From Dermacentor variabilis (taxonomy: Eukaryota; Arthropoda; Arachnida; Ixodida; Ixodidae), in contig NC_134570.1 in NCBI RefSeq assembly GCF_050947875.1, positions 207,109,750 through 207,173,749 of the forward strand: DNA of 64,000 nt. The letters are read 5' to 3'. Under the pieces are notes generated by a model. It was not told where the DNA came from, made no database searches, and worked only from the letters and a program-made list of their open reading frames with translations. A program made the translations under genes and the position numbers. How positions within the stretch are numbered: the stretch's first letter is position 1; each line of letters starts with the position of its first letter. Of the stretch, positions 7,010 to 63,698 are shown piece by piece.

Positions 7010-7484
7010 AATAAATGTGAACTTGCAGCTTCTGCGCAGGGTTCATCCTATCATTCTCAAAGCGGTCCGCCGAAGCAAAATGGTCGCTTTTTAAAGAAAA
7101 GATGCAAAGGCTTTTAAAGACTTATTTTGCTACCGTAACAGTCAGAGAGTGCGCGTCATTGCCGTGGTTTATTACCGCCCTTTAGCGTCTAAACAATACG
7201 GAAAGCATGAGGTTCCGCTTCGCTAAACGTTCAAAGAGCCCGCTCCTCTGGAATAAGTACTATTTTGCTGAGAAGGAATTCGGGTCCCTTGCCCCCCAAA
7301 ACCAAGTGAACGTTCGTTTCATGTAAATTAATTGCTAGGCTTTCCAGAAAAAACACGACAAAGGCGGGAAATGGCAAGTCAAGACGATAGCAAAATGAGA
7401 ACAAGGTAAAAGCGAGAGCCAACGTATCGACAAGTGTACTTGTCATCTTCTAGGCGGCATATGCTTCCCTCGGCACAGTACGTA
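7010..7484. other. Stretch without recognised genes
   Basis: No motif-bearing ORF is seen. A 71-codon minus frame at 7231-7446 has no recognisable domain. A G-run lies at about 6977-6998. Confidence 0.4.
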
Positions 7485-10869: not shown

Positions 10870-12506
10870 TCTTTTTGTCAGTTTTCACTCATGAGCCTCC
10901 GGAAGACATCCCACAATTTTCACGTGAAGGTAATCCGCTTATCTCTTGACAGCTATGATGTCGCGAAATAAATTAAAATGCCTTAAACTTACTTCATCCG
11001 CTGGTGTAGATAAAATAAATACTAAGATTCGAAGAAAACTCAAAACAATACTAGTGTCGCTTGATCCCACATTTTTTTAGCAGTCGTTATTCCGGGGCGT
11101 AGTACCACATGGGTGGAGGATATGAAAGATTATTCCTTTACCGAAATCATCTTCTCCGTCTCTATATTGACCTAACGTCCAATATTTCTTAGATACATCT
11201 GCTCCAAATTAATGCAGCTTATTGTTTCGTATAGCATTATGAAGTTCCTGCAAACTGTCAGCTTTTTTTTTCATCATACTCAGAATGGTTTTGGAAAAGG
11301 TAGGTCCTGTTAAACTAAGCTCGCCGTCTTCATGAACTACTGCAGCCTCGACATTCAGCTACGAGTCGACGCCCTTCTTCTCGTTCATGAAAAGGTGTCC
11401 GATAAGGTTCCGCATCAGACGCTTTTCGCTTTTACTACAACTTTCACCTTCAAATCATGACCAACTCCTTGTCGAGTGGACGCGCAGTACTTCTTTACTA
11501 ATCACTCACAATTTGTCTACGCAAATTTGGCCTTGTCCTGTGTAACTCCCGTAATTGCCGGCGTACCTCAAGGTAGAATCCTAGGGCTATTGATGCTTCT
11601 CATTTAAAGCGATTACATGCCATCATGAATGTCATCTAACATTCGTGTATTCGCAGGAGATTCCGTCCTGTGCCGCGCCACTGCCACCAGTGCCGATGCT
11701 GACGCTCCCGCAGAAGGATCTCGATCGCGATCAGCATTGGCGCAGGAAATGGCTCGTGTCGTTAAATGTGAACCACGTCAGCCTCATTTCTTCCGAACGT
11801 CCAACCACGTTCCTCGAAGCTGCACGGTCGATACCTCTTGCACATCTGTTGCCCATTCACAAAAGAACCTCGGCGTAACAATATCGCATGATCCTAGTTG
11901 GTCATATCACGTTACGCGCATCACCAGGATGCTAACTACGTTTTAGGATACTTTCGGCGTACCATATGTGCGCAGCCACACCCTCTGTAAGATTATTAGG
12001 TTATTCAACTGCAGTGCGTCCACAATTCGATTACGCAAGCGTCATATGGCACCCCACCAAACGTCCCATTTAAAACCCTTGAAAGCGTTTGGAACCATGA
12101 AACCAGGTTCATTTCTTTCCTAATTTTTCCTACCATTCCAGCGTAACCCAAGTGAAAGCATGTACTAACGCTTCCAGCTTGAAATTCAGACGTAAGATAT
12201 CCCGTATCTGCCTTTCTTTATATATATTTTATCATTCACAGCTCGGTAATTTTTTCGTCACTCCTAGCCACCGATTACCTCGTCGTGCGATCCACAAATG
12301 AGCTGCTTACCCTGACCACGCTCGCACCTCTTCGCATCGCCGCTTCTTCTTCTACAATGTACGAAGCGTTGCAATGCCCTCGCTCCTGACATTGCGTTGC
12401 ATAGCCAAGCCGCTAGCTTCGAGAAGTGCGTTGAAGAATGTATGCTGTCATAAGCGTTGCACCCCCTAAGCGAGACATACGAGGTGTTAATTAATTAATT
12501 AATTAC
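10870..12506 (+). mobile_element. Degenerate Jockey/CR1-like LINE, RT to 3' tail
   Basis: The plus strand, read through several frameshifts, gives GVDKINTKILK around 10990 (the 'PGPDGI' region) and VVPHGWR..KIIPLPKS near 11095-11150. Near 11545-11590 is VIAGVPQGRILG, the conserved VPQGS(V/I)LGP box. Near 11640-11670 is IRVFAGDSVLCRA, the FADD catalytic box with one Asp lost. LGVTISHDPSWSYHVTRIT (about 11860) and FDYASVIWHPTK (about 12025) are standard post-RT blocks. The element ends in a TTAA repeat at 12488-12506, a typical LINE tail microsatellite. Endonuclease and ORF1 are missing. Confidence 0.75.
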
Positions 12507-14889: not shown

Positions 14890-16355
14890 AATTTATGTAT
14901 GCCCCTTATGTCTTTCTTTATGGCTGCTTTGGTATTGTTATATTTCCTACATTTGCTGTTAGGTTGTGAGTGTTGCCTCATGACCTCGAGTCTACCGGAA
15001 TCTTGGAAGGACGCTATCATAATACTAATCCATAAGAAAGGGGACGCCAAAGGCTTAAAAAATTATAGACCGACCAGCTTACTGTCCATTGCCTACAAAG
15101 TATTTACTAAGGTAATTGCAAATAGAATCAGGAACACCTAAGACTTCCGTCAACCAAAGGACCAGGCAGGATTCCGTAAAGGCTACTCAACAATAGACCA
15201 TACTCACACTATCAATCAGGTCATAGAGAAATGTGCCTAATATAACCAACCCTTATATATAGCTTTCAATGATTGCGAGAAAGCGTTTGATTCAGTCGAA
15301 ACCTCAGCAGTCATGGAGGAATTACGGAATTAGGGTGTAGACGAGCCATGTGTAAAGATACTGAAAGATATCTATAGCGGCTCCACAGCCACCGTTGTCC
15401 TGCATAAAGAAAGCAAAAAAATTCCAATAAAGAAAGGCGTCAGGCAGGGAGATACGATCTCTCCAATGAAATTCACAGCGTGTTTACAGGAGGTATTCAG
15501 AGAGCTGCCTTTGGGAGAATTGGGGATAAGATTCAATGGAGAATACCTTAGTAACTCGCGATTCGCTGATGATATTGCCTTGCTTACTAGCTCAGGGGAC
15601 CAACTGCAATGCATGCTGACTGACCTGGAGAGGCAAAGCAGGAGGGTGGGTCTAAAAATTAATCTGCAGAAAACTAAAGTAATGTTTAACAGTCTCGGAA
15701 GAGAACAGCAGTTTACGATAGGTAGCGAGGCACTGGAAGTGGTAAGAGAATACATCTACTGAGGACAGGTAGTGACCGCGGATCCGGATCATGAGACTGA
15801 AATTATCATAAGAATAAGAATTGGCTGGGGTGCGTTCGGCAGACATTCTCACGCCAAGAGCAGCAGGTTGCCATTATCTCTCAAGAGAAAAGTGTATAAC
15901 AGGTGTGTCTTACCAGTACTCAAGTACGGGGCAGAAACCTGGAGGCTTACGAGAAGGGTTCTACTTAAATTGAGGACGACGCCACGAGCTATGGAAAGAA
16001 GAATGATGGGTGTAACGTTAAGGGATAAGAAAGAGCAGACTTGGTGAGGGAACAAACGCGAGTTACTGACATCTTATTTGAAATCAAGAAAAAGAAATGG
16101 GGGGGGGGGGGCATGGGCACGACATATAGTGAGGAGGGAAGATAACCGATGGTCATTAAGGGTTACGGACTGGATTCCAAGGGAAGGGAAGCGTAGCAGT
16201 GGATGGCAGAAAGTTGGGTGGGCCGATGAGATTAAGAAGTTTGCAGGGAAGACATGGCCACAATTAGTACATGACCGGTGTAGTTGCAGAAGAATGGGAG
16301 AGGCCTTTGCCCTGCGGTGGGCGTAACCAGGCTGATGATGATTACGATGATGTGA
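14890..16355 (+). mobile_element. RTE-clade LINE, RT to 3' end, inactivated
   Basis: Plus-strand non-LTR element of the RTE type. Order in frame: [64 protein letters not shown] (palm A, D changed to N at FND); GVRQGDTISP (the RTE form of the GxxQG box); and SRFADDIALL with FADD at 15562-15573. Then come CVLPVLKYGAETW and the conserved RTE C-terminus GWADEIKKFAGKTWPQL, ending ALRWA. The 3' tail is GCTGATGATGATTACGATGATG, the ATG-rich tail usual for RTE. About 1.15 kb from 14899 stays in one frame and is broken by stop codons (15139, 15238, about 15331, 15760). A frame change occurs near the G-run at 16099. The 5' endonuclease is missing. Confidence 0.85.
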
Positions 16356-21175: not shown

Positions 21176-21329
21176 AACATAGGACTTGTTGCGTTTACAG
21201 GTGAGGGTAGGTAACGTGAGTGTCTGTGTTAGCTCTACAGAGATGGAAAGCATTTTAAAAAATCGATGTTTGCATATGGATGTGAACTTTTTTGCACACT
21301 TTCGAGAAGTACACAACTTGACCTACAAC

Positions 21330-23145
21330 TGCCGCCCCTAACTAAGGAGAACCACGGAGCGTTCGAAGTGCGTGCCACCTCGTCTGTTGAGTGTGGGGCG
21401 AGAAACTCAGAGCGCTATCGACGTGCACGCCAAGGTCCTTTGTTGTCTGAGCTCTTGGCAGCAGAAGGTCTTCAACGCTATAGGTAAATAAAGTCCTGTT
21501 AGTCTTCCACGTGAAATTCACAACTTTCGCTTTTGATGCATTTATCACTAGCTTGTTTCCAGGGCACCATCACGCAAAATTCGAAATGTCCTTCTGAAGA
21601 GCGGCGCAATCATTAAGCTATTTTACCGCTTTGAAAAGTTTCGCGTCATCAGCCTATAACAAAGTTGAAGGGTTTTGAACGACTGTCGAAACGGCGTTAA
21701 TCAACAGCGAGAAAAGAAGAGGGTTTAGGACAGACCCTTGAGGAACTGCACTTGTAGCCGCATAAGGTTCTGACGACAGACCATTTACGCTAACGTAGCA
21801 GTACCGGCCGCATAGGTAGCTTCTTATAAGCGCGGGGATCGACTGGTGCAAATCATGTTTTGTCAACTCTTAAAGGAGAATTTTCTGGCATGCAACACCA
21901 AACGCCTTACTCAGGTGAAAATAAATGACATCCAGCTGTCCTTTCTTATATACTGCTTGAGTGGCATGCATCATGAAGCTAAGGAGGTTGGTAGTTGTGG
22001 AGCGTCCCAATATGAACCGATGCTGCTGAGAAATGATAGTATCGTTAATAGAGCGTGAAATTATTTAGTGCATAATTGACTCGAACAATTTAGATGCTGC
22101 GCATAGGAGAGAAGTAGGCCTGTAGTTATTCGCAGCAGTTTTTACCCAAGACGGGAACGACCCGCGCTGTTATCCAAGGCTTTGGGAATGTGTTCCGTCT
22201 TTAAACCAGATTTAGAAATACGATTAAGTAAGCACTGGAACAAGACCAGTACGTCTTAATCAAAGCAGGTGGAGTGTCATCAGAGCCATGCGAAAAAGAC
22301 GGTTTTAAGCGTTTGATGCTCTTAAATACAAATTCCTCTGAGACCGATAGACTTGAGCTCACGGAAGGGCGATTGGAAAGCTCACTAACTCCGTCACTGT
22401 AGCCTTCACCGTACACAGACCCGCAGTGTAGGGCGAAGGCGCCCGCGACATCTGGAACAGGTTGACCGTCGCCACTAAGTAGAAAGATATCTTCGTTTCA
22501 TATTATTGGATGACTGTTCACGAACGTGTCTCCAGAAAGACCTTGAATATTTAGAAGTGCTAGATTCCACATATGCTACAGAGTTGGACTGATCACGCTT
22601 GTAAAGACGTTTGGAGAGTGCCCTGTACATTTTAAAATCTATATGCTAGTGTCCCTGATTCGTATGTTGAGCCTTCCGGTGAGCACGGTCTTCAAGCTTC
22701 AAAGCTGTTTTCAGTTCAACAGAAAACCAGTGGGGAAATTTAGAGCGGTTAGCACCTTTTAGTAGTACAAAGTTCTTCACTCCGTCATGATTAAATATTC
22801 GTGAATGGGGTGACTTGGTCATTAACATCTATTAATAATGCGGACTGGTCTTCAGTAGCAGAACTAAGATAGTGGTAAAGACCCACGTAATCTGGACTTC
22901 AGAAATAAAAAAAAAACCGAGGTGTTACTGTTTCCTTAATTCTCCTGCTACTAGGTATTGCGAATTGAAATGAAATATGAAGCGGGGGTGATATTTATCT
23001 GGCTTAACAAGGGGAAAATTGCAACAGGACACATTCATAGCTTCTGTATTACTAAGGGATAGGTCTAGTACATGGCCGCAAGAGTTCAGGGTATCGTGAA
23101 ATTGGTACTGAGACGTAAAAGATATAAAATCTAGTAACTAGTTAC
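21330..23145 (-). mobile_element. Degenerate Jockey/CR1-like LINE (linker, RT)
   Basis: Reading on the minus strand: the endonuclease-RT region near 23100 has SCGHVLDLSLSNT (D-x-x-LSN end of EN) and PLVKPDKYHP. Near 22350-22200 is FKSIKRLKPSFSHGSDDTPP, the 'KPGKSPGPDGIP' region. At about 21840-21690 is IPALIRSYLCGRYCYVSVNG then SAVPQGSVLNPLLFSLLINA, the VPQGS box. At 21548-21342 is VINASKAKVVNFT followed by TTKDLGVHVDSALSFSPHTQ, the post-catalytic block. The YADD box itself is not clear. Many frameshifts; both ends truncated. Confidence 0.75.
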
Positions 23146-35532: not shown

Positions 35533-37755
35533 GTCATGAATGAATGAATGTTTATATTGAAAGAAAAAAATACAAAGAATCTCTGTCAAAGAGGCTGACA
35601 AATAGGCACGAATGCCTGAGCAATTATCAGTCCCCTTCCCCCAACACGTTCCCAGTGCACAAAACACTCAAGCACACAGCGTAAGCATGGTATACAGAGT
35701 GGATACACACACAAAAAAATTAAAAGTACATGAAATACGTAACAGATATATTGAATGCGATTTGTGTACAAAAGAATGAGCAGTCATACCTGAAGCGACA
35801 GCAAATACAAGTTCACTTTTTTTTTTAAAGTGCTTAGGGACGGTGATTCATTTATTATAGTTAGTAAGCCAGGATGATGATTCAGAAACTCTACAACTAT
35901 GAATGTCTGCTTTTGCATGCCGTAATTTGTAAGGACTTTGCCCTTGTTGGAAGTTAATTGCCCTGTGTTGTATGTATGTTCATTTGGGAAGCATGCTTTA
36001 AAAAAGGCGCTTTAATTGAGTCTTACCTGTTTAAATATTGCAATGGCTGTTTTTTTTGTTAATAAGCCTATCTGTTGTTAAGGTACAGTTCTTCTTGAAA
36101 AGCGGAGCGGAGTGGCTCCTATAGAGCGCATTCTCAATTACCCGAATCATGCGTTTGTGCAAGGTTTTTAAACTATGGATGTTTGTTTTCGTCGTGGTAC
36201 ACCAGACAGACAAGCAATATTGGAGGCGCGAATGCACTAGGCTATAGTAGAACTGTTTTTTAATCCATAAGGTAATACACGCTTTAATTCATTAATAACA
36301 CCGATGGATCTTGCAATGCTGGTTTTAATATTGAGGACATAACTGGACCAGTTTAAATGTTCTTTAAACCTAACACCAAGGAGCCTCTGGGACGTAGAAT
36401 GACTTCATAACGGAATTGTAATACTAAGCTATCATCGATACCCTTGTTACGAGGCCGAAAAATAATTTATTTTGTCGTTTTACTGTTTAATTTCAAGTTA
36501 TTTGCTCTAAGCCAGTCTGAAAGATTACTGAGCCAAATATTTGCTTCTTGCTCGACAGTAAGCAAGTTTCCACCGGAAAAGCAGATTTAGTGTCATCAGC
36601 ATACATGATTATGTCAGGTGTTAGAGGCACGTTTGTGATGTCTAAATTGTACAATAAAAAAAGAAGTGGCCCTAGAAAGCACCTGTGCGGAACACCGTAT
36701 TTGATTTCACCCATTGCTGATTTGGAATGACAAATATATGTGTACTGTAGTCGCTTGGTTAAATAATATTTAAGTAGGTTGAGAGCAGTTCCCCCAATGC
36801 CGTACTGATTTAACTTTTGTAACATGATATCGTGTTTAATGGAATCGAATGCCTTTTTAATGTCAAGAAATATTCCTGTTGTGTACAGCTTGTCTTCAAA
36901 GTTACTTATTCTTTTCTCTTTGATCTTTAGAAACGCCATTTCAGCACATTGGTGCTTTCGGAAACCGTATTGCTTTTCTGTTATAATATTAGTTGGTGTA
37001 CAGAAATTTAAAATTCTTTTGTTAATGACCTGCTCTACTATTTTGGAAAAGATTGGGAGAACTTAAATCGGTCTGTAGTTGTTCACGTCCTTCGTGTCTC
37101 TCCCTTTAAAAAACTACCGATAGCCGTGCAATCTTTAATTCATGGGTGAATGCGCCAGTGCACAAAATTAAATTCCATATGTGTGGCACTGCTTTACAAA
37201 TCTGCAGCGCCACAGCTTTTATTGGTTCTGCCTTTATGCCATCCACACCACATGCTGTGGAAGTTACTTATTTCAGCCTCAACTGTTGGTGCAAGAAATG
37301 GCGACCTGCTAATACTACATGGAATATAAGACCTGTAAGTTGGGCTATCAGCATCGAACGCGTCAGACGCGCCAGATTGTAAGAAATGCTGAATAAAAAT
37401 ATCGGCCAGTGCCGTCCCTGTGAAAGATACGCCTTTAGCCATAACCTCCAAAACAGAATTTCGGTCACTGTTCGGAAGTAGATCATTCAATGTTTGCTAA
37501 ACTTTTTTTTGGATCATTAAGAATGAGTGAAATTAATATCATAATACGTCTCCCTTGCCAGCCTTACATCACGGCCTAACTTATTCCTGACCTTCCTGAC
37601 CCTTTTTCTATTTCATTAAGTACTCTGGTGGGCCTTGTCTTTATAAAAGTAGCGAGAACTCTATTGCGTTCCTTGATTCGTTTTAGAAGCGCGGTGTCAA
37701 CCCACGGTTCATGGAAACAAACAAACGCGAATGACTGGTGCATTTGCGCAGATGT
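35533..37755 (-). mobile_element. Jockey/CR1-like LINE, linker through RT to 3' tail
   Basis: Minus-strand element. From its 5' side near 37740: EPWVDTALLKRIKERNRVLA then TFIKTRPTRVLNEI, the EN-RT linker. At 37490-37190, DIFIQHFLQSG is followed by a decayed RT start. The best frame is 36939-36493: GIFLDIKKAFDSIKHDIML (palm A, FLDIxKAFD), GVPHRCFLGPLLF (VPQGS box decayed at PQ), and IIMYADDTKSAF with YADD at 36592-36603. At 36237-36031, MHSRLQYCLSVWCTTTKTNI and LKTLHKRMIRVIENA form the standard C-terminal block. The 3' end has a (CATT)n tail, seen on plus as AATGAATGAATG at 35538-35550. No endonuclease remains. Confidence 0.85.
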
Positions 37756-45336: not shown

Positions 45337-46783
45337 TACAGTATTATCAAAGAACGTATTCAGGTTATCGCGAAACGTTTCACGGTCTGTAACACATGCG
45401 ATGTGGTCCAGAAGATTGTTCCAATGTGCGATAAAGCGAGGCAGTGACGATGAGCTAAATGACTGCGTTTGACCACGTATGCGCATGAAACTGGACGTGT
45501 TGTGAAGACGTCGTTACGTGCGCAAGCTGCATGAATCGGCAGACGGTGAGTTTTTTTTTTTTTGCATGAATGTACCTGTGAAACAGACATAAAAGAGGAA
45601 TCACGCGGCTAGTTTTTATTGACTGAAGTGAGGAGTATTTTTTTTTATTATTCAAGTAATTCTAGAAAGCTGGCCGCATTTACGCAAAATGAACCTGGTT
45701 GTTATGTTTTTAACAGCTCCCAACATACCAGTCACGTACTCCTGATATGGTGACCATGTGGGTTAAGCGAATTGTGATTGCAGACGAACATATGTTATAA
45801 ATGCTTTTTTCTGTAAATTAAAAGGTGTGTTACGCAAGTTTCTGCGCAGATAACTGAAGGTCTTAGAAGTTTTTGAAGAGATGGCTGCTACATTTGTAGC
45901 TTAGGAAAGATCAGGTGCAAAGTGACACCAAGTTATTTGCACGATATGGTATTACAGACTATGGTATTAGTAACCGAGTAGTGAAACCCTAAGCTTGTGA
46001 GTTTACAGGTACATGAAATTAAACTGGATTTAGAAGCGTTCAGGGACATCTAAGTGTTGCACTATAGATTACGTCAATGTCATTTTCGAGAGACAAATGG
46101 TCATCGAAAAATTTAATTGTGCGGTACGCAGTCGTCAGGTGAACAACCCAGGTGAGGGTTACATATCAGAGGGTAAGCCATTATTGCATCTTAAAAAAGA
46201 GCAATGAACCGAAGCCACAGACTTGAGGGACACCGGACGTGACATCGCAAATCTTAGACAAAATCTTATTCACTATCGTAATTTCCTGACGCTGACACAA
46301 GTTAGAAGCCAAAATGGCCTTAATGTTTCTAAACAAAAAAAACATACAACTTAAAAATCAAACGGCGATGAGGTACAGTCTCGAAAGCTTCAGACAAAAG
46401 AAGAAAAACGCCGTCAGTGTGGTCATCAATGTCCTTGTTAAAGTGAAAGCCAGTGGTAAGTTCAAATAACTGTGTATCACAGGAGTAGCTTCGGTGAAAC
46501 CATGATGATTAGAGAAGAAAAAGATATTGGATTCAAGGTTACAGTAGATATGAGAAGCTATAACATGCTCAAGTAATTCCCCGCATATTCATGTTAGTGA
46601 AATATGCCGATAATTACCACTAGAGTGCCTGTCACCAGATATAAAAGGGGAACAACCTTAACGATATCCCGGTCCGTGGGTAGTTCACCAGATTATAATG
46701 ATTGACTAAAGATGAGATACAGAATGCGACTGGAAATATCTGTAGTGTTCTTTAGCATGTCGAGTTTATTATTTATCGATTAT

Positions 46784-46994
46784 TTGTTTTGAACACATAT
46801 ACACATATATACAGTTAACACGAAAGGGAAAGTGAGGAGCAGGTTGGCAACTGCCACCGGAAGGGGCACAACGCCTGCCTACTCTTCTGAAGGGAGGTGA
46901 CAGCAACACAGAAATGGAAGATAGGAAGGAAGGGAGGAAAGAGGAAAGGAAGAGCAACAGGACAAATCTAAAGACTAAAGTAGAACACAGTACA
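46784..46994. repeat. Dispersed repeat A, copy 2
   Basis: Same sequence and orientation as 16674-16879, starting TTGTTTTGAA. It interrupts the minus-strand LINE between its linker and RT. It has slightly diverged (GGAAGGGGCACAACGCCTGC here). Confidence 0.8.
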
Positions 46995-48477
46995 CTAGCA
47001 CGTTGTTATCTTTACCAGATAAAGTAGGACATTCAACAATGGTAATCATCTTAGAGACTCCTTTGGCAGTGACGACGATTGGTTCTATGAAGGCGAAGTT
47101 TTCCTCCGGAACAAACAGAACAGAACAACCTTCCCGTGTAAAAACAGATGAGAAATACGCATTGAAATTAACTAGACAATCTTCATCAGAAACAGGTGTT
47201 TATTTTGCATTGTGTATTGCAATATGTTTAGTACAATTATTAAGGCCAATTTCCAGAACTTATTAAGATAATTGCTGCTATGCTAGTACAAGTCCTGAGA
47301 GGAATATTTCTTTTCAGCAGCGTCTAATGCTCTACAAGGTTGTAGGCATTCCTTGTGTTTAATGCACAACCGTTTCCTTTTACTTTGTAATGATTGAAGT
47401 TGCTCAGTAAAGTGAGGGTTGCTTTTATCGTTTACGATAGAGATTAGTGGCACATAGTCGTCAAACAAATCTAATCTGTGCGTTTCAGTTGTGTTCATTT
47501 CTCATTCAAACCGACACAGAAACGACGGCAGGAAAAGTTCATAGAAAATCTAATTCGGTGTTTATCGCAATTTGCTCAGTTACAATATCGGATAGCTTTA
47601 GTCGTTACATCTGAATACATTAATAGTAGGTTAATTGTGAAGTTGAACAGCTTAGGAACCTAAAGCCTTCGACGTAAGAAACCAGTCGAGCATTGTCCTG
47701 TGCAGTCCTTCAGATCAAGTCCAAATTGCTAGCGCCTCGAGTGCATTGGTCAACAACTACCGATAAGTTGTAGCCAAGTGTAGCATCGAGAAAATCAGCT
47801 AAGGCGCGACACGTAGTAAACATAGCAGAACAAACAATGAGAGATTAAGTAAAATCACCAAAAAATACATTACGTCGGCTGGACATAGTTGTGGAGTGCG
47901 TGCTGTGTTAACATGCAGTTTCCTAGTGAGGAAAGCATGGGCATCAGGTGGGCGATAACATGATCATAGAAGTAATTTAGCACATGCAATGCATGTCTCC
48001 AAAGTTATTTCTATCTTCGGGTGAGTGTCAGTTGGAAGCGATGAGACTGTCTTCTTGACCGCTGTTAACACGTCGCCTCCTTCCTTTTTTTCAGCCCGCT
48101 CACACCCATGTACCTGTACCATAGTTGCTTTTATTTCGGAAAAGTTTTTCGTTTGTTACGTCAAAATACAGCGAGGTCTCCGCGAGTAATAATATGACAG
48201 GGTCACTGTCATCTACGTAAGGACACAACTCATCGCACTTAGGCGATAAAGTTCCAATATTTGTAAAACATGCCGATAATGATGGCAATTTTTTCTCACG
48301 CTGCTTACGCATGCTCGTGCTAGCCTCACGCTATCTGGTAGGCTGTGCACCTACGTAGTTTGAAATGTAAAAAAACATAGGTGTTAGCACCAATGCGAGA
48401 CTTACCCACGGGAAGCTTGAATAGTTTATTCTGAGCTTTTGCGCATTCCAGAAGCTTTTGACGCGCTTGTCACGTTG

Positions 48478-49100
48478 TCAGATGAAAACTTTCGCGTATG
48501 TAAAAAGATTGCTATAGAGCTTGCGTGCATTTGACAGAATCTGTGCTTTGTCCCAGAAAAAGGTAAACATGGCGATGATAGGCCTTCGTTCTTCCGTGTT
48601 GCACCTGTACAGCCTGTGATCACGTTCGAATTGCCGGTATGTTATGAAAAAGTCGAGGTTATCGAAACAGAACTTCATAATTTTTTCAGAAGTTGCCCAG
48701 TCCTCCATAGGGTCCCCTTCTAGACTGAAAAAGAGGAGGTTGGAGCGACACATCCTAATTTCTGCATCATCGCATCCATTCGCAATTGTCGACAGCCGGT
48801 GCGTCACATTACGTGAAGCATCCCAAGCGCCGCAAGGTGCGGTCGCGAACAGAGGGTGTTTACTTCTTCAAGCGGAGTTAACTCTGTACTTAGGCGCTTG
48901 ATTTCGTTGTCGGCCGCTTTCAGTCTGTCGGACACAACTCGAAGGCCGCCTGCTTCAGCAGCAGCCCCGTCTGCACGACGTGCCACACTGGCTTCCTCTA
49001 GAGTTTCTACTTTAGGCTTGAGTTGTTTAATTTTGATTTCAGCGGTAGAATGTTCAGAAAGTAGACTCATAACTTTTCTTGAGGTCACGTGTTTCCTCAA
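48478..49100 (-). pseudogene. LINE ORF1: coiled coil and RNA-binding domain remnant
   Basis: After the 2A-like motif the minus frame at 49100-48804 gives a long charged helix with heptad-like Leu/Val spacing (IKIKQLKPKVETLEEASVAR, then AADNEIKRLSTELTPLEEV), expected to trimerise. After a shift the frame at 48807-48478 has CRSNLLFFSLEGDP, DWATSEKIMKFCFDNLD, QFERDHRLYRCN and RPIIAMFTFFWDK. This matches the L1-type ORF1 order: R-x-NLL(F/I), the ExF-x-R-x-HR-x-G strand, and (R/K)P(I/V)I(A/V)-x-F. The protein would bind element RNA as a chaperone. One frameshift in the middle disables it. Confidence 0.7.
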
Positions 49101-49134
49101 GATGGGCGAATGCCTCGGCTTCAGGTTCGCTCTT

Positions 49135-49164
49135 AGGGCCTGGATTTGATTCTACATCGCCACA
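49135..49164 (-). other. 2A-like (StopGo) peptide motif, second copy
   Basis: On the minus strand the codons spell CGDVESNPGP, an exact match to D(V/I)ExNPGP. The coiled coil of the LINE ORF1 follows after one frameshift. This is the same layout as at 4821-4850 in a different LINE copy. Confidence 0.75.
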
Positions 49165-49165
49165 T

Positions 49166-52045
49166 ACGCCAGACGCACAAAATGTACATCTCGAACGCTA
49201 GTGTTATCTTTTTTTGCACAGGCTCTAACTAGCCTACACACTGTATACCTTCTATGGCAGTCACGCATAACATGAACCATATGGCTTCCAAACATAAAGT
49301 TGCTGCCATTTTTAGTGGTTTCATGCAAGCTGGAAATTTGTGTAGGTGTTCCACAAAACCAGGTTCGAGCAATTTTATTTCATCTCCTATAAATAACTTT
49401 CAATATCGGCCTGCACATCAACCTTAACATGACCTATACTTTCTGTGAACGTAAACCACGTAAATGACCTAGTTTTTGCAAGACACCGTGAAAACCTGCA
49501 TATAGTACTTTCGAGCATCCTATTCACACTAGCTTCGCTGTAAAAAATTTGCTCCTGAAAATCGGGAAATGTTCTGTTGCCTTTAAATGCAAGGAACTAT
49601 GTCAAAGATCGTGCAGTGTACACTGAGCAAAATAATTTGTGCTTTATCATATATTTACGTAGAAGTCCCAGTGGTAAAGCACTCTGATAAACCACCCACG
49701 GTAAGGTGTCCTCATAATTTGCAGTCTTCGCTCACTCCGCCTGAGTGTCATTTTAACTGCGATCGAAACAATTTGGAAGACGTTTAAGCTTCACCTTTAA
49801 GACTGGGACACGATGGCATTCAAACATCCCTGACTGCTTGCCACGGTTCCCGGCAACCGCGGCTCTGTTGTGGATGCGCGGAGGGGAGCGCCATCTGAAG
49901 GGTGGTGCTGCAAGGAACCCAGCGGGCCGGCCGCTTTATGAATGGTAGAAACGCTGGAAAAGGGGCTTGTGCTTGAGTTTCCGCGTAATATAATGATGTT
50001 TTCTGGTATATTCAAATTACAGACCGACGCTATCATGTCTATAGGTTGTGCCTAAGCCGTACTTTACAATTTTTCTGAAGTATTCTACTTTGAAAAATTC
50101 AATTAGTTCAGTAACACCTATGTGCCACGCGGAGGACCTGCGTGGTCTCGGTTCGGTATGATTTTTTGCGAAGCAAGGTCGGACACGTCCAAAGCCGACA
50201 CGGGGCCCTTAAGGCTACCGCGTTAAAAACAACTTACTGGTGTGTCAGATAACTGAGCGCACCAGGAAGTAAGAACGAAAACTATCGACGCTGAAGGCTG
50301 TACCTATCACTGCAAAGTCGTCAATTCGTGTCTTTTTTTTTTCGCCAATTGCACGTTTTATAATAGTCATAGTTGAACCAGGTAACAGTCCCGTTTATGA
50401 GAAATATCAATTGATAGGTGAGTTCACAGGCAATCTTTTTTTTTTGCATGTGCCTTTCAGTGAAATTTTCCTTCTTTACTCTCACGCACATAATGTTGTC
50501 TTTGTCGGTTAAGGTATGTCTTGCGTTTGCGAAGAAACCACCGCTCGCAGACACCACCGTTTGCAGAGATATTATCATCACTACCAAGTCAGCTCCGGTC
50601 CGAGCAGTAAACTTCACGTCAACATCCTTCAATATATTGCTTGACGCTGCCCAACGTCAAAAATTTTCGATCGGTCTCTTCTCGTGCACCAATTGTGATA
50701 GCTGCAACGCCACTGCCTCCTCATCACGCCAGCGCAGTGAAACGCCTGGTAGCGACCAAGGCACTGTTACTTCTGCCCACCAGGAGTTGCCTTGCCTGTT
50801 GCACTTGCGCATAGTTAGAACACCGTCTGAGGTGCTGAAATGCAACGCTAAACCTCCCTATCACTGTCAGGCGGTTTCCTGCTTTAAGCAAAAGTGCTAA
50901 ATTGTTTTCCAAAGACGCGTGTTCTAGGACATTAAAGCATATGAAACGCTGCGTCCACGTCTGACAGACACTGAACCAGCTCAGAAAGTTGCAGATCATA
51001 TAATTCGCGAAAAATTATGCTTCTTTACGGTCGCATCTATTAGGCTGGATATGATGAAAAGATGGTGCTCGGAATGGGCAGTACTATCAACCCATTTTGA
51101 TTCAAAGATCATTACATTGACTGCGGCGAAGTTTCTTGTTTACTGGCATCTAGTACCTTGAAAGGAATTGTGATTTACAGTTCAAGGTAGCAGAAGCGAT
51201 TTCAGAATATCAGTTTTACAGATTTTAGACCTCGCATGGAATTGGCTTATAGAGAGTTCGTTCAGGGGCTGTCCTCTAGACCTACAAATGAGCAGAGATA
51301 CTAGTTAGTTTTGGCAATGAAGCTTAATGCTGACGCTGTCGGATCTGCAATGGCTTAACTAGACTAAAGAAGAGCCTAAATGTGAGCTTTTCCAGATAAT
51401 TAATGTAAAATATCAGTGGTAGTTCATATACGCCCGTGCGCTTTCATGTACATGTAGTCAGAAAAATGTAGAGCAATTATTTTCCGTTAGTATGGCTTCC
51501 TCACCACTTATGGCTCATAAGTTACATTCTTAGGTGTAGAACATTTTTTTGAACTGGCAGTCTTCGCGAAGTGTAATGCTGTGTGCCTTTCCCGTTCTTC
51601 ACCCTGACATTGATGCAGGACAAAGATTATTAACCATTTCACTACGGAGCACTCCTTGCAGAAGAAAACCCAAATGAAACTATTGTTTTTATTGGTTCAA
51701 ACAAAGGTATGCGCAAAGAGCCAGATTTTAGAATTGAAAATGTGTATTTTAGACGAGGGCTTTGGGAAAATTATTTTGAAAGCAAATACAGTGCAAATAA
51801 CAACGTTAATGGAAAGCTTCATGACTAGGTTAGCTGGAAAGGCATGTTCTTTGCGTTACAATAGAGTGCCACTGTCACTTTGATGGACGCCCGTATAACT
51901 CATTCTCAAAATAGCCTATGAACGGTGAAGCCAACAAAATTGTTTTTAAGGTTTGTCTCGACAAACACAGATTGTCCTCAGTAGGGGCGGTACGTACATG
52001 TCACGTTGTCATAATGGCGTAGAATAACACTGTAAAAAGCGTGAC
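49166..52045. other. Stretch without recognised genes
   Basis: A CpG-rich block at about 49830-49935 may be part of an interspersed repeat. A plus frame at 50418-50900 (160 codons) has a Cys/Ser-rich end but no domain. A minus frame at 50321-50632 reads a K-rich chance peptide. Nothing else is seen. Confidence 0.4.
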
Positions 52046-56640: not shown

Positions 56641-59508
56641 CATGAGCATGAACAAAGATGACTTCAAGACATGTACTAATCTGAACGAGGTTTGTAGTTT
56701 CTTTCCAAATTCTAACGGTTGCGCCTTTCGTGCTGGTCATGTCAACATTCGCAGTGTTAGAAAACATTGGGGCCATTTTCAGGCCTTAATTACCCCCTTG
56801 AACTCCTATTTCGATGCGATCGTGCTTACTGAGATTAACTTTCCGTCTGCGTCCATCAATCAGTATCAGATAATTGGATACCAAGTTTTTTCATACACTA
56901 GGCCAATTAAGAGGGGAGGAGACGTGGCAGTTTTCATCCGGGACACATGAGCGTCAACTGAGCTGAATTTCTCCTTTTCCCAAGCTGAAATTGTGGCAGT
57001 GCGTCTTTGCGCACCTTCCTTGTCACTAATCCTTCTTGCGGTTTATCGCTCACCGTGTTGCAACGGTCGTTTATTCCTGGATGAACTGGATGTCGCCCTG
57101 GCCTCGATGTCATCAATGGACCATGTTTGCCTAATTGGAGATGTCAACATAGATACGCTACGCCCTTCAGCGACGACAGTTAGTAATTATTTGGACGTCA
57201 TTTCCAAATGGGGGCTTGCAAAACACGATCTGTGAACCTACGCGCGAAGAATTCCTTGCTGGTCATCCTGTGACATCTTGCATAGATCATATAAATATAC
57301 GTGCACATAGCTTGAGTGTCAAATCTGCCGTTATTACAGCGAAACTTGCTGATCATTACATGGTCTGCTGCTCTCTAACAGATGACACTACTCACTTGGT
57401 CGCTCCAAACGAAGTCAAACAAATCATGATTGTTGACCCCTTGGCTTTCGAAAAATTTGTAATGAATCACGACTGGTATAAATTTTTGATGACTGTTCGC
57501 CCAGGCGACGCCTATGACAACTTTGCAACACTGTTCACTGATTTCCGGCTTGCAGCTACACGGGTCTGTAAAATTAAACAACGTAACTTGGACCAAAAAT
57601 GGATGTCGACAGAAATATTCGCGGCAATACAAGCAAAAGACTTGTTATGGGTTCAAACAAAGAGAAATCCTAATTGTACCGCTTTGCGGCTTCAGTTCAA
57701 AGAGCTTCGAAATAAGGTCAATGCTATGATACGTCTAGCAAAACGTAATAACTTACGAGCAAAATTCACGGACGCTCGTTGTGACAGCCGGAAAACATGG
57801 TCCCTAATTAACAGTCTTAGAGGTGGTGATGTAAACGCTAATCGCCATGTTGATCTGATGTCTCGTTTTTCTTCAAATGGTACTGCCACCGTTAATGATT
57901 TTAACTCATTTTTTAAAAAAATGTCTGGTGTAGCGAGACCTCATCCAGATATTTGCACATTGCAAACTAGCATTTCAGAATCCGCCTTCCTTCCCATGTT
58001 TTCGGAACACGATCTGAAATCAATCCTTTTCAGTCTAAAACCAAATAAGTCTCCAGGAATTGAGCTGCGCAGAACTGTCGAAGCAATAAAAGATGTGATA
58101 CTACTCATTTTAAACAATATTATTACCACTGGTATCATTCCCGATAATACGAAAAATGCGCTGATCATTCTTCTTTTTAAAAGTGGCGCACGCAACAATA
58201 TCGAAAACTACCGGCCTATTTCAATCCTTTCATGCATTGGGCAGATATTGGAAGAACATCTGCTCAAGACAATGAGCAGCTTTTTAAACAATCATGGCGT
58301 TTTATCTCCTAGCCAGTAGGGCTTTGCGCCGAATCGGGGTACACAGTTGCTGCTTAAAGATTTTTCCGATACACTAAACTCTGCGTTTGAACACAATCAG
58401 ATTGCTTGTGCACTGTTTCTTGACGTCCGCAAAGCGTTTGACAGCGTCTGTCATAGTATACTACTAACCAAACTTTCTTTGCTAGGCTTTCGGGTGTGCG
58501 TTTTTGCGGCTTCTGAAAAACTTCCTATCTCACAGGCACCAACTTACGTCTATTGGAAAATTTCGTAGCAGCCTGACCGAAATTAAATCTGGCGTCAACC
58601 GAGGTTCAATTTTAAGTCCGTTATTATTTACTTTATATTTTAACGGTTTATCTCATGTTGTGAACGTCAAATTATATCAGTATGCTGATGACACCGTTCT
58701 TGTTTCACACGCTCGAAGTTACACTGACGCCATCTATTCTTTACAAATGGCAACAACAAAAGTGATGGACTGGTTTCGGAATAATGTAGCCCATGTCAAT
58801 GCGTTCAAAACTCAACTAATCTGTTTCCACAACCTTGTCAAGCAAGTTACCCTATCGTCCCCAGTATATTTGCACACATCACACTGCAATCCCTGTTCGT
58901 GTGACCCTGTACAATACGCTTGTTCAATTAAATACCTTGGTGTTTCTTTTTTTTTACAGTGATTTATCCTGGAACTCTCATTTCGCATATATTTGTCACA
59001 AACTTCACGCAGTGTCTTGTGCTTTGTATAATATTAAATTTTGCATGCCATTGTCTGTCCGAAAGCTTGTAGTACATGACTTATGCTACAGTGTAATCAG
59101 GTATTGGATATCTGCATACGGTCACGGCGCTCAACATTTGGTAAACCAGGTCAACTCCGTCCTTCGTGGCATTCTGAAGCATGTTGCTTATGATGTCCCC
59201 CCCCCCCCCAAATCTGATGTGTTCAAAAGTTTGTCTTTACCTGATTTCAATTCTTTGCTGCTAGAAACTGTTGTCTTAAAGTATTTTTGGATAAGCCAGT
59301 ATAAAATTCCTTATGTGCCTGTTCGTTGCCTGAGACCAAAGAATCCGTATGTTACACCCCGCTGTTAGACGAGATTTGGTCGAAGACTCCGTAACTATTA
59401 TGTCCCAGCAATGTTTAATTTACTTCCCGAAAGCATACAAGATGTGAAGGCGAAATATGGTCTCAGAAAGGCTCTTAGACACATTAATGCGTCATCGGAA
59501 GCCTGTCA
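56641..59508 (+). mobile_element. CR1-like LINE: endonuclease and reverse transcriptase
   Basis: Fairly complete plus-strand ORF2. Endonuclease: AGHVNIRSVRKHW, FDAIVLTEINFPS (catalytic Glu), YTRPIKRGGDVAVFIRD, LILLAVYRSPC, HVCLIGDVNIDTL (catalytic D and N) and CIDHINIR. RT from about 58000: LKPNKSPGIELRR (GPDGI lost), NIENYRPISILSCIGQILEE, CALFLDVRKAFDSVCH (palm A), EIKSGVNRGSILSPLLF (VPQGS decayed to VNRGS) and LYQYADDTVLV, with YADD at 58681-58692. The end block runs to KNPYV near 59355 and, after a shift, RFGRRLRNYYVPAMFNLLPE. Defects: TGA at 56948, a +1 in a G5 run near 57205, TAG at 58317, shifts near 58495 and in a T-run near 58950, TAG at 59366. Split from its 3' UTR by the I-like LINE. 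Confidence 0.85.
57216..58319 (+). pseudogene. CR1-like LINE ORF2, longest intact frame (367 codons)
   Basis: This frame spans the end of the endonuclease (ICEPTREE, CIDHINIRAHS, ADHYMVCCSL as the SDH-like region with S to A) and the linker (RNLDQKWMSTEIFAAIQAKD; LRNKVNAMIRLAKRNNLRAK). It continues into the first RT motifs (LNNIITTGIIPDNTKNALII; YRPISILSCIGQILEEHLLK), ending at a TAG within the SQ*GFAPNRGTQLL motif. The RT continues in the same frame after the TAG to about 58490. The ATG at its start is internal, so it is not a real start codon. Confidence 0.75.
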
Positions 59509-59575: not shown

Positions 59576-61951
59576 CTAGATGGCCACTGGGAGCTGCTGC
59601 TCCCGTGCGGCTTCCTTGGCTCGCTGGACGGCCCAAAGTTGGTCTTGGAGTTCTGAGCTGAGCAGCACGGCCGACCACCGCGCCCGTAGATTTTCTGGGG
59701 AGACTGCCATTTTATTTTGGTATATTTCACATCCCCACAACATGTGTTGAAGGGTGGCTCTAACAGACTTGCATAGCTTGCACATATCGCTCTCGTATAT
59801 ATCGGGGTAGGAAGTTTTTAGTTGCACGGGACTCGTATAAGTTTCTGTTTGTAGTCGCCTCCAAGTAACGGACTCAGCTCTGTTCAGTTTAGTGTGAGGC
59901 GGTGGTAATACCCGCCTCCGATTTTGATAGAATTTGGTAATATCACTACATCTTGTTAATACATCTTTTTCTCTCCAGATTTCCTGCTCCGCGTTCTCCT
60001 GACCGATGGAAGGCACTCTTTGCTCAGCTCGGCGAGTAAGACCTCGAGCTTCGCGGTGTGCTACCTCGTTGAGGTTGACTGCGGGAATGTCTGGAGTCGT
60101 ATGCGCTGGGAACCAGATCAATTGCCTGCCGTTCTTCTCTGCATTGGAGAACTTTGCTTCATTGACTCTGATTATGTGCCATGCCTCGAGAGAGATCCTA
60201 CCTTTTGCATAATTTATAATGGCCGCTTGAGAATCGCTAATTATGTGCTGAGCATTCGTGGAGACCAATGCTAGTGCAATGGCTACCTCCTCTGCGGTCA
60301 CGGAATGTTTGGTATTAACTGATACGCTTGTAAGGGGTTTTTGGGTGTGATCTACGATTACTGCTACATAGCTATTTCTGTCTGGGTATTCAGCCGCGTC
60401 TACGAAGGTTGCTCTGTCGTCTGACCCAAAGCTTCGGATAATTTTCTCTGCTCTACTCTTGCGTCTGCCGTCGTTGTAACCTGGATGCATGTTCTTGGGT
60501 ATATTTGGTACTAGGAGTTTGTCACGAATTTCTCTCGTTATCGTGCTCTTTTCCTCGTATAGATTGTGATAATTCATTCCTAGTTTGCTTAGTAAATGCC
60601 GTCCCGTTTTGGTTTTGGTTAGTCGCTCTGCTTGAGATGTTTGTTGTGCTTCTATGAGTTCGTCCAGTGTGTTGTGGAGTCCTAACTTTAGCAAGAGATC
60701 CGTGCTCGTACTGATGGGAACCCCTAGCGCTAGTTTGTATGCTTTTTTTATCATGTTGTTAATTTTACGCTTTTCAGCTGCAAACCAATTGTGGAAGGCT
60801 GCTATGTATGTGATCTGACTGATTACGAATGATTGTATCAGCCGTATGATACTTTTTTCCTTCATACCTTCGTGCTTGTTAGTAATTCGTTTGATTAATC
60901 TCATGGTGTTTGTTACCTTTGTGTCTAACTTCTTTACCGTTTCCCTATTTGTTCCTTTGTTCTCGATTACCAGACCCAGCACTCTGAGCTGGTTGACTAT
61001 TGGGATATTCCGCCCGTTCTTGGTGTGTAGCTTGATTTCCTCATGAGCCTTGTTTCTGTCGTATTCTTTGGGAGGCCTGCCTCTAAGTGTGGGGCGGTAC
61101 AATAGAAGTTCAGATTTCTCTGCAGAGCATGTGAGGCCTGTTCCTATGAGGTGTTCCTCTACTGTGTTAATTGCTGTCTGGAGTCGTTGTTCTATTGATC
61201 CGTCGCTGCCATCACAGGTCCAGATAGTAATATCGTCCGCGTAGATTGTGTGATTCAGGGACTCTATGTGATTTAATTTTTCGGGGAGTCCCATCAAGAC
61301 AAGAATAAACAGCATCGGCGAGATGACAGCGCCTTGCGGCGTGCCGGCCCCCCCTATGTCGATCTCGGGCGACTTGAGCCCTCCGACGGAGATGACTGCT
61401 TTCCTATCTGATAGAAAGCTCTTGATGTAGTTATACGTCCGTTGCCCTAGTCCTATTCGTTCGATGTTTTCCAATATGGTTGCGTGGTTGGCATTATCGA
61501 AAGCTTTTTTAAGATCAAGGCCCAAGATGGCCCTTGTCGAGCGCGTGTTATAATCGATTATCTGATGCTTAAGTTGGAGCATCGCATCTTGTGTCGAAAG
61601 ATTTTTGCAAAATCCTATCATTGTATCTGGGTATATGGTATTATCCTCTAAGAAGTTGTCTACTCTGTTTAAAATTACATGTTCCATTAATTTTCCGACG
61701 CAGGATGTTAGGGAGATTGGTCTGAGGTTGTCTATCTCAAGCTTCTTACCAGGTTTTGGAATAAGCGTTATCGTCGCTTTCTTCCATTGAGCTGGCACTT
61801 CTCCCTTTACCCAACACTCGTTTATGTATTCTGTTAGTTTGGCTATCGATTCATCATCCAGGTTCCTGAGAGTCTTGTTGGTTATACCGTCCGGGCCTGG
61901 GGCGGATTTGGTGTTTAACTTTTGTAGGGCCGCGCGGATTTCTGCCTCCAT
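59576..61951 (-). CDS. I-like LINE reverse transcriptase/RNase H (791 codons open)
   Basis: This encodes the enzyme that would copy the element's RNA onto nicked target DNA. Motifs by residue: APGPDGITNKTL 17-28; LRPISLTSCVGKLMEHVI 76-93; ILGLDLKKAFDNANH 142-156 (palm A, catalytic D147); GTPQGAVISPMLF 203-215; YADD 237-240 (catalytic). RNase H follows at about 514-640, with D518, E554/E555 and D573 of the SDSQAAI motif; the last acidic position is changed (NEVAH, His632). A knuckle, C-x2-C-x8-H-x4-C, lies at 724-741. The frame continues upstream 21 codons to a TAG at 62015, so the ATG at 61951 is internal, not the native start. No lesion lies within these 791 codons. Family assignment is firm; exact clade is inferred. 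Confidence 0.85.
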   Translation of the reverse strand: MEAEIRAALQKLNTKSAPGPDGITNKTLRNLDDESIAKLTEYINECWVKGEVPAQWKKATITLIPKPGKKLEIDNLRPISLTSCVGKLMEHVILNRVDNFLEDNTIYPDTMIGFCKNLSTQDAMLQLKHQIIDYNTRSTRAILGLDLKKAFDNANHATILENIERIGLGQRTYNYIKSFLSDRKAVISVGGLKSPEIDIGGAGTPQGAVISPMLFILVLMGLPEKLNHIESLNHTIYADDITIWTCDGSDGSIEQRLQTAINTVEEHLIGTGLTCSAEKSELLLYRPTLRGRPPKEYDRNKAHEEIKLHTKNGRNIPIVNQLRVLGLVIENKGTNRETVKKLDTKVTNTMRLIKRITNKHEGMKEKSIIRLIQSFVISQITYIAAFHNWFAAEKRKINNMIKKAYKLALGVPISTSTDLLLKLGLHNTLDELIEAQQTSQAERLTKTKTGRHLLSKLGMNYHNLYEEKSTITREIRDKLLVPNIPKNMHPGYNDGRRKSRAEKIIRSFGSDDRATFVDAAEYPDRNSYVAVIVDHTQKPLTSVSVNTKHSVTAEEVAIALALVSTNAQHIISDSQAAIINYAKGRISLEAWHIIRVNEAKFSNAEKNGRQLIWFPAHTTPDIPAVNLNEVAHREARGLTRRAEQRVPSIGQENAEQEIWREKDVLTRCSDITKFYQNRRRVLPPPHTKLNRAESVTWRRLQTETYTSPVQLKTSYPDIYESDMCKLCKSVRATLQHMLWGCEIYQNKMAVSPENLRARWSAVLLSSELQDQLWAVQRAKEAAREQQLPVAI

Positions 61952-62014
61952 GAGTTCCTCGTCTAATTTTGCGTTTGTATTCCCGTTGTAGCTAGGATAG
62001 ATGCAAGGGGGTGC

Positions 62015-62551
62015 CTATTTTAAGTATTTCTGCTGTAATTCATTGATAAATTCCTCTTCTGTACCCTCATATGCGTGTATTAACTTATTAATGGCTTGCA
62101 TGTGATTTTTCTTGTTATTGTCATGGTCAAGCAGGAACCTGAGCATGTGCCAGGTTTTGCCGGTGCTTAATTGTCCGTCCATGGAATTACATATCTCGTC
62201 CCATTGTTGTTTGGTCAATTGCTTAGCATTTTCTTCTATTTTTTTGTTGAGGAGTGCTATGCGCTTTCTTAACTTTCTGTTATGCTTCTGACCGCTAAGT
62301 CTATTCTGAAGCGACTGCTTAGCTTCCCACATGTGGAGAAGAATGCTGTCGCATTTATCCAAGTTAGATTCAGGTGGTGCTATTTTTGTGGCAGCTTTGA
62401 CGTCATCACTGAGCTCCTTAGTCCATTGTTCTATGTCTGCGATTGATCGTTGATGTGTCTTCTCTTGCGTTCTACGAAATAGTTCCCAGTCTACTAATTT
62501 GATCTGTCGTTCCTTGGGTCTATTCGGCCCTTCTCTGACGTGTAACTCCAA
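62015..62551 (-). pseudogene. I-like LINE endonuclease-RT linker region
   Basis: This frame joins endonuclease to RT. It begins inside the 8-bp duplication region and reads HRILELHVREG-type text, then a helical, basic segment (RLSGQKHNRKLRKRIALLNK). EEEFINELQQKYLK follows before a single TAG at 62017-62015. The reading frame is identical on both sides of the TAG, so one base change would account for the break. The linker in this family carries no catalytic motif. Confidence 0.7.
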
Positions 62552-63222
62552 TATGCGGTGGTCACTTGGTCACTACCCAAATCTTCCAGTGTGTTGTGCC
62601 ACGTCGCCTTTTCAATATTCTTGGTAAAGGTTAGGTCTGGGGTTGTGTCCCTGTTTAGCGCCGTGCCTACTCTGGTTGGAGTGGCGGGGTCTGTGACAAG
62701 CGTGAGGCCTAATTCTTGCGAGTCGTTCCATAAGTCCCTTCCTTTTGCTCTGGTATATAAGTATCCCCACGTGGTGTGTGGGGCATTAAAGTCTCCTCCT
62801 ATAACTACCGGATTTTCTCCAGCAAGTCTGAGTGTTTTCTGGAATAGGTTCTTGAATTTGTGTTTATGTAGCATGGGGTTACTATAAATGTTGAGAATAA
62901 ATAAGCTACGTCCTGTCTTTTTTTGTGGGATGAGTTCCAATAGAATATTGTCAATGTGCGTTATGCCTGTGTTGTGCTGCATGCAAGTTATGTTTCTTTT
63001 TACCAGCGTAGTTAATGCCCTGGTGTCCCCTTCGGCATAGCCAAAAGATCTGTATCCTGCTAGCTTTGCAATCCCGTGTGTTTCCTGCAGAATTATGACG
63101 TCCGGTGTATCCTTGTCTTTCAAATACTGCTGCAAAACTGACTTTTTGTTTTCGTAACTTCTACAATTCCACTGCCATATCCTGAACCCTTCTTTAGCGC
63201 GCCTCATTTCGGGTGCGACCAT
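62494..63222 (-). pseudogene. I-like LINE AP-endonuclease, frameshifted at its last motif
   Basis: The domain would nick target DNA. Visible residues: IWQWNCRS with N19; DVIILQETHG with E47; LFILNIYSNP; VIGGDFNAPHTTWG with D144 and N146; TPDLTFT with D196; and the final GSD at 217-218, where the catalytic SDH should be completed. There, AGTGACCA is present twice in tandem (plus 62559-62574), which changes SDH to SDQ and shifts the frame into a false stop at 62494. Removing one copy in thought would restore the frame into the linker, which is why I call it a recent lesion. Its start overlaps the ORF1 end by 19 bp. Confidence 0.8.
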
Positions 63223-63698
63223 GGGAGGGGGACGGGAGGTTGGAGAGAAGCTGATCTTATATAATTAGGTGGTTGTGAAGTGGGTAAGGATTGTGGTGCT
63301 TCTGACGCAACAGAGGGGAGTCCATTACTTGGTGACTGGTTTGCCTCTAGGATGTCTAATCTACTCATAATTGCTGCTATTGCCTTAGCCATTTCATTCA
63401 TCATTTCGCCCCGTTTTTCATTTGACTTTTGTATTTCTGCTAGGCTCTTTTGAATATCGGCTAATGCTTTATCTACCACTGCGTTATCTTGTTTATCACT
63501 GATGGCTTGGGCCTTGCGTTTGAGTGGAGGGGGCTCATCCCCTTCGTCCATCTTATTGTCCGGGATTTCAAATGGCTCTTTCGTGCTCGCGTGTGGAGTG
63601 GAAGTGTCTGTGTTTTTTTTCTCACTGTTGTCTACAATATAATAAGGTGTTACTGATGGCTCTCTCGTTGTCTGCCAGGCACTGCCGTTCACGCCCAC
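63204..63698 (-). CDS. I-like LINE ORF1-like frame (164 codons, probably truncated)
   Basis: Polar N-terminus, then a helical segment with regular hydrophobic spacing, ALADIQKSLAEIQKSNEKRG and MMNEMAKAIAAIMSRLDILE (about residues 75-118), suggesting a coiled coil. A Ser/Pro/Gln-rich tail follows. I-type ORF1 proteins usually carry CCHC knuckles and are longer; none are seen, so this may be only part of ORF1. The frame begins at GTG and stays open upstream, so the true start is not defined. It overlaps the endonuclease start by 19 bp. It would act as the RNA-binding partner of the RT. Confidence 0.5.
   Translation of the reverse strand: MGVNGSAWQTTREPSVTPYYIVDNSEKKNTDTSTPHASTKEPFEIPDNKMDEGDEPPPLKRKAQAISDKQDNAVVDKALADIQKSLAEIQKSNEKRGEMMNEMAKAIAAIMSRLDILEANQSPSNGLPSVASEAPQSLPTSQPPNYIRSASLQPPVPLPWSHPK

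Follow-up and report, generated by a model that had tools for sequence, protein, structure and literature searches.

The window analysed here is the whole 64,000-nucleotide stretch from the genome of the tick Dermacentor variabilis. On its minus strand the ten residues CGDVESNPGP are the exact translation of positions 49135-49164, as the first-pass annotation had read them; the same core is recovered by translation and by a pattern search. This 2A-like core lies in an open frame of 47 codons found by a frame scan (49057-49197, minus strand), from which the body of the ORF1 can be reached only through breaks: that body, detected by tblastn with the tick ORF1 homologues P0034, P0046 and P0047, stands at 48406-48822 on the same strand with its frame broken. 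Matches to homologues further mark the remnants of an ORF2 endonuclease (47662-48086, minus strand) and of an ORF2 reverse transcriptase (RT) with its C-terminal part (45343-46869, minus strand). This element, here termed copy B, is a dead LINE remnant. It carries an in-frame deletion of 33 nt (length counted by hand on the alignment) just before the core, which is placed by alignment with its relatives within 49159-49172 of the minus strand and is seen in none of the 17 relatives that can be aligned there. The deletion took away the Leu-rich residues that precede the core and that, in most relatives, end in ..LAG. With the codons immediately ahead of the core lost, the C in CGDVESNPGP is no family residue, and the motif of copy B consequently stands without a 2A context.

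A second copy, copy A, lies on the plus strand. Its core, found by the pattern search and by reading, is CGDIELNPGP (4821-4850), with RLLAL before it, and it retains the 2A upstream context, RLLALCGDIELNPGP. A frame scan places it in an open frame of 143 codons (4668-5096, plus strand) that holds a leader remnant, the 2A and the start of the coiled-coil part. Upstream DNA alignment locates a pyrimidine-rich leader end and CAG|GTAAAC at 4666-4701 of the same strand, with the CAG ending at 4695; this boundary stands 131 nt before the 2A core and thus in a different frame. The element is interrupted by foreign sequence (about 5149-6280) ahead of its ORF2 pieces, of which those on the endonuclease side, recognized by homologue matches, fall within 6283-7290 of the plus strand (6283-6585 and 7063-7290). 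Reverse transcriptase pieces at 10967-12352, likewise recognized by homologue matches, probably also belong to copy A, as they are on the same strand and in the right order.

No further NPGP besides those of copies A and B was found within the window. Five other LINE remnants with RT matches are present at 57216-59368 (plus), 59576-63698 (minus), 14977-16011 (plus), 36103-37110 (minus) and 21309-22338 (minus), all of which branch apart from both 2A copies in the RT tree; the remnant at 59.6-63.7 kb has long open frames. An RT fragment at about 850-1600 of the minus strand groups with the 2A-bearing loci L015 and L020 and is perhaps a third remnant of the same lineage, with no NPGP beside it. 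The segments 8459-8743 and 9790-10082 form an inverted repeat pair around (TA)n runs, and both match the region 7.0-7.3 kb of locus L019.

The frequency of the motif was gauged with the pattern GANGTNGARNNNAAYCCNGGNCC, the nucleotide form of (D/E)VExNPGP with E also permitted in place of D. With at most one mismatch it matches twice in the 64-kb window, as opposed to no match in 100 dinucleotide shuffles; the match that needs the mismatch is the CGDIELNPGP of copy A (4827-4849, plus strand). Genome-wide (2.48-Gb), the exact pattern has 1339 + 1335 = 2,674 matches, as against 0 + 2 for a reversed-pattern control. The decay of both window copies is what a chance match devoid of function might look like; the genome counts against the control, the conservation of the core described below and the homologues named from four tick genera nevertheless bring the likelihood of such a match close to nil.

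The genomic sample read in detail comprises 28 sites among the first 100 listed of the 2,674 matches. Codons were counted in 24 of these 28 loci, leaving out L002 (a near-copy of L001), L005, L009 and L013, and the core codons for D, E, N, P, G and P are mixed synonyms. Since these 24 loci were picked by the pattern, only the mix of synonyms is informative, and a protein search is the better test. Such a search with one ORF1 gathered 82 proteins, including named homologues from Amblyomma, Rhipicephalus, Dermacentor and Ixodes; its search words may also fall on the 2A region, which favours members keeping the 2A, and since the proteins come from gene models and frame prediction, the set is biased toward open frames. 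The first 76 homologues were aligned with the query, and 42 rows (the query and 41 homologues) have both leader and body. Across these rows the core, excluding the variable position x, has a mean entropy of 0.35 bits, compared with 0.40 for the best eight-column window of the body: D is kept in 42/42 rows, E in 40/42, the N in 40, the following P and G in 39 each and the last P in 39/41. G precedes D in 41 of the 42; the three positions preceding the residue before that G are L in 41, 38 and 32 rows, and the residue between these leucines and the G is C, S, G or A.

The StopGo/2A core (D/G/C/N)(V/I)ExNPGP is found in both window copies, in their relatives and in the homologues, and the upstream context that goes with D at p12, a Leu-rich stretch ending in (A/S/C)G, is present in the lineage and in copy A and missing in copy B. 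PMC12846837 links L-rich upstream contexts with p12 = D, and describes four upstream motif classes tested in reticulocyte lysate, L-rich among them, all of which supported StopGo. The conservation across families and species argues that selection acts on the 2A peptide in tick ORF1; it was judged at this level and not by dN/dS, since the eight motif codons of dead copies hold little information. The first-pass annotation had proposed such selection from the two window copies, which alone show little; the claim holds by virtue of the core being the best-conserved eight-residue window in the 42 ORF1 sequences.

The relatives of copy B were found by DNA similarity, with the motif not required. 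A search of its own genome with 49420-48350 (minus strand) yields 34 matches including copy B itself, of which the best other is 76% identical; 22 loci were tested, and the core region is alignable in 17. DVESNPGP is intact in three of these 17 (L030, L033 and L039), and the remaining ones have decayed cores, such as DVESNLGP, NVESNPGS and DLASNPGP, or indels.

The ORF1 of the relative L022 has no Pfam family at E 0.01, and its fold was therefore modelled with AlphaFold2, using the part after NPG|P and an alignment of 33 sequences. The model (pLDDT 93.9) has a single long helix at residues 2-74, followed by an RRM-like and a C-terminal domain, and the closest solved fold is that of the human L1 ORF1p trimer (2yko; TM 0.65/0.70, with ~20% identity in the fold alignment). 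The protein behind the 2A in L022 is thus predicted to have an L1-type ORF1p fold with coiled coil, RRM and CTD. The coiled coil and RNA-binding domain that the first-pass annotation had placed after the motif are accordingly seen in the model of this less broken relative, whereas copy B itself offers matches in broken frames only.

The ORF2 of L022 contains the RVT_1, Exo_endo_phos_2 and Exo_endo_phos domains; the endonuclease and reverse transcriptase of an APE-type two-ORF LINE, a CR1/L2-like kind of element, are hence present in L022 and as remnants in copies A and B. In L022 (1345-4920) a single in-frame stop codon separates the ORF1 frame from that of ORF2. A fixed relation between the two frames was rejected, as ORF2 starts in the ORF1 frame in 7/19 loci, about what chance gives; a spliced ORF2 message was likewise rejected, since near the ORF2 start the 19 loci hold few sites that resemble an acceptor, and none that is conserved. 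A tree of the RT columns, built without named clade references, places copy A with L027 and the group of L012, L015, L016 and L024, and copy B with L021; the placing is rough because the decayed copies sit on long branches and copy B contributes only 131 aligned residues. Both copies are dead members of one tick LINE lineage and are hence related: the two carriers of the motif, earlier taken as independent, belong to different families of this lineage and have the motif in common by descent.

Upstream of the 2A, alignment and scans reveal a shared unit in many loci: TATAAA is followed after 31 nt by an initiator, (A/T)GTGGGC or a close variant of it, after which come an ATG and a short leader with a pyrimidine-rich stretch and CAG|GTNAGT at its end. 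In a strict scan the distance from TATA to initiator is 31 in 13 of the 28 sample loci, and no other distance was found. Genome-wide, TATAAAN{24,26}AGTGGGCNCGG has 564 + 350 matches versus 1 + 1 for the control, and among the first 100 listed of these all have a gap of 25 apart from two with 24. Several relatives of copy B also have a TATA box, but with other spacing to the GGGC as judged by eye. A ribozyme in the leader was considered and rejected: the window has no Rfam match at gathering score, and in six loci scanned up to E 0.1 only microRNA families appear, all 12 matches being in L022, far below gathering scores and apparently on its (TA)n runs. A search for target-site duplications at the inferred 5' ends of 10 loci gave nothing convincing: the longest stretch in common is 10 nt and falls within the element.

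The segment ending at the CAG recurs further upstream in 15 of the 28 sample loci, with the similarity stopping at the CAG or a few bases away; no upstream unit was found in the other 13. The spacing between units is divisible by three in 13 of these 15 loci, but not in L007 (1255) or L008 (293). Among 15 further relatives of copy B an upstream unit is seen in five, with a spacing divisible by three in one of the five; the two sets pooled give an in-frame spacing in 14/20 (binomial P about 0.0009, for related loci that are not independent). Arrays chosen by the promoter, with the 2A not required, have 24/27 intervals that are multiples of three, and the first interval is such in 13/15 arrays, two of which are L003 and L004 again and some of which are of one family. 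Their unit lengths are 243, 252, 273, 285, 291, 294 and 297, with 265, 289 and 296 as exceptions. For the 13 loci whose spacing is in frame, which leaves out L007 and L008, the stretches between the junctions hold in total 8 stops in the ORF1 frame as opposed to 47 and 37 in the other two, and the ORF1 frame is free of stops in 9 of these 13 loci, the other frames in 0 and 0. The 79-139 codons between units thus stay in the ORF1 frame. The units within an array are 97-100% identical in L003 and L004 and only 88-93% identical in L018. In six of 11 aligned loci (L006, L011, L016, L018, L022 and L028) the start of the 5'-most partial unit is no more than a few bases away from the initiator A, as expected if the copies derive from RNAs starting there.

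A comparable arrangement is seen in proteins. Of the 46 homologue proteins that have the 2A and a candidate leader end, nine hold the leader once more further upstream, in frame and stopping at the same Gln, and all nine are gene models from Rhipicephalus, Dermacentor or Amblyomma; P0063 of Ixodes ricinus, with a decayed 2A, is similarly arranged with an Arg at the second end. Between P0007 of Rhipicephalus sanguineus and P0008 of Dermacentor andersoni the 87-residue unit is 69% identical and the ORF1 body 84%. In P0016, a gene model (isoform X2) of Dermacentor andersoni, a stretch of ~42 residues occurs three times in the N-terminal extension, each time with PQ before V; this triple repeat may be an effect of the gene model.

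CAG|GTNAGT stands at the boundary of the promoter unit, about 100-170 nt before the 2A core, in L003, L004, L022 and other sample loci. Across 23 sample loci, the boundary Gln is encoded by CAG in 21/21, versus 39% CAG (32/83) in the ORF1 bodies of 12 loci; the codons for the boundary Ser are AGT in 15, AGC in 2 and TCN in 0 of 17, and the third base of the Val varies. The junction finder rewarded the letters CAG|GTNAGT, and the upstream DNA alignment made without the finder shows the same column. The element thus seems to be kept at the nucleotide level, and it resembles a joined 3' and 5' splice site, with the reservation that the +3 base of CAG|GT is T or C in 16/23, unlike in usual donors.

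Taken together, we propose, with a probability of about 0.72, that the motif at 49135-49164 is a fossil StopGo/2A sequence from the ORF1 N-terminus of a large and old tick two-ORF LINE lineage, in which the leader comes from tandem in-frame promoter units and the 2A equalises the ORF1 product. In functional elements an N-terminal leader would be translated first and freed when the ribosome skips the Gly-Pro bond of NPG|P; ORF1p would then begin with Pro, followed by the L1-type coiled coil, the RRM and the C-terminal domain. The leader would exist because the 5' end of the element consists of tandem promoter units in frame. An RNA starting at the initiator of the distal unit would be translated from the leader ATG in that unit through the next TATA box and initiator, read as codons; the order from this start is leader, spacer, proximal leader, 2A and ORF1. 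An RNA from the proximal unit would bear a shorter extension and yield the same ORF1p. As the 2A would give the same ORF1p from every start, ORF1p would be independent of the number of units. On this proposal the 2A would be active in tick cells, transcription would begin at the initiator, the upstream ATG would be used, and equalising the ORF1 N-terminus would be the reason why the 2A was kept.

Other readings account for parts of the same evidence. The 2A might instead trim or dual-target ORF1, with uncleaved protein directed to the ER by a hydrophobic leader and skipped protein remaining in the cytoplasm, the in-frame units being a by-product. By hydropathy only, the sequence at the distal junction resembles a signal peptide. 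In a 36-residue span that opens 12 residues ahead of the junction, the highest Kyte-Doolittle mean over 12 residues ranges from 1.80 to 2.59 across 13 loci; it is higher than in the proximal unit in all of them but L011 and L025 (11/13). Such a dual function has a precedent in the 2A-like signal sequences of sea urchin NLRs, according to PMC4981915. As this reading has hydropathy as its basis and leaves the maintenance of the ORF1 frame over the 79-139 inter-unit codons unexplained, we hold it to be possible yet doubtful. Alternatively, the units might be untranslated tandem monomers as in mouse L1, with ORF1 made from the proximal ATG only; tandem units, near-identical in L003 and L004 and 88-93% alike in L018, and copies beginning inside a unit speak for it, both being described for mouse L1 monomers in PMC9022269. 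We regard it as quite improbable in view of the spacing in multiples of three, the openness in the ORF1 frame only and the entry of the units into ORF1 in frame, with no untranslated tether.

Compatible with the proposed 2A leader, and concerned with its origin, is the possibility that units were gained by splicing at the pyrimidine-rich CAG|GTNAGT acting as a combined 3' and 5' splice site: by joining an upstream leader exon to a downstream copy, splicing would supply one more unit and carry the TATA box through RNA. The bias to CAG for Gln and to AGT or AGC for Ser alongside a free third base of Val points to a signal at the nucleotide level, and in 15 loci the unit similarity stops at the CAG or a few bases off. 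The pyrimidine at +3 in 16/23 is at odds with it, as are the few acceptor-like sites, none of them conserved near the ORF2 start in 19 loci; moreover, the finder favoured these letters, the related loci are not independent, and a single ancient duplication that had this boundary and was passed on to all of them would equally account for the common boundary. Hence, we consider splicing an unlikely source of the units. A bolder synthesis, which we offer tentatively and think rather less likely true than false, would have the LINE carry its TATA promoter through the RNA cycle by means of stacked coding promoter units, with TATA box and initiator as codons, a distal signal peptide, splice-like CAG|GT joins and a 2A that removes the variable N-terminus and so leaves ORF1p always the same.

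Odon et al. in 2013 are said to have described 2A-like sequences in APE-type LINEs. As in those elements, the 2A core of the tick lineage accompanies an endonuclease and a reverse transcriptase; the tick LINE differs in having two ORFs, in the L1-type ORF1 that immediately follows the 2A, and in the tandem promoter units, open in frame, that precede it. The predicted coiled coil, RRM and C-terminal domain are shared with human L1 ORF1p (2yko), which is not known to carry a 2A. Papers on the 2A in APE-type LINEs and in L1Tc are cited in PMC12846837 and PMC11512398. The Trypanosoma cruzi L1Tc, as given in PMC4748587, combines a 5' promoter and a 2A in one LINE, its Pr77 being TATA-less and doubling as an HDV-like ribozyme. 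The tick LINE similarly combines a 5'-end promoter with a 2A; unlike L1Tc/ingi, it has a TATA box at a fixed distance from an initiator, tandem units and no ribozyme family in the Rfam scans. In mouse L1, PMC9022269 describes monomers as tandem promoter units in the 5' UTR, with a tether before ORF1 and copies that start inside a unit. The tick elements likewise appear to have tandem promoter-like units at the 5' end and copies starting inside a unit, whereas their units, as read from the sequence, continue into ORF1 with its frame open (9/13 loci). With the sea urchin NLR 2A sequences they share an N-terminal leader with a hydrophobic, signal-like sequence, by hydropathy only, though in the tick this belongs to a LINE ORF1 and in the sea urchin to cellular immune genes. 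Neither LINEs with a 2A in ticks nor promoter units in frame with a 2A turned up in a partial coverage of the literature, mostly titles and openings of abstracts. The 2A itself is of a known kind; its combination with in-frame promoter units looks new.

The proposed arrangement would supply a concrete reason for a LINE ORF1 to begin with a 2A: a 5' end that is read by the ribosome would have to carry the promoter as well, which would call for a clean N-terminus of the protein. It also has implications for the way in which a LINE may keep a promoter that lies partly upstream of its own transcript start. Finally, with its many copies in this one genome and relatives in several tick genera, the lineage would constitute a natural library of 2A contexts.
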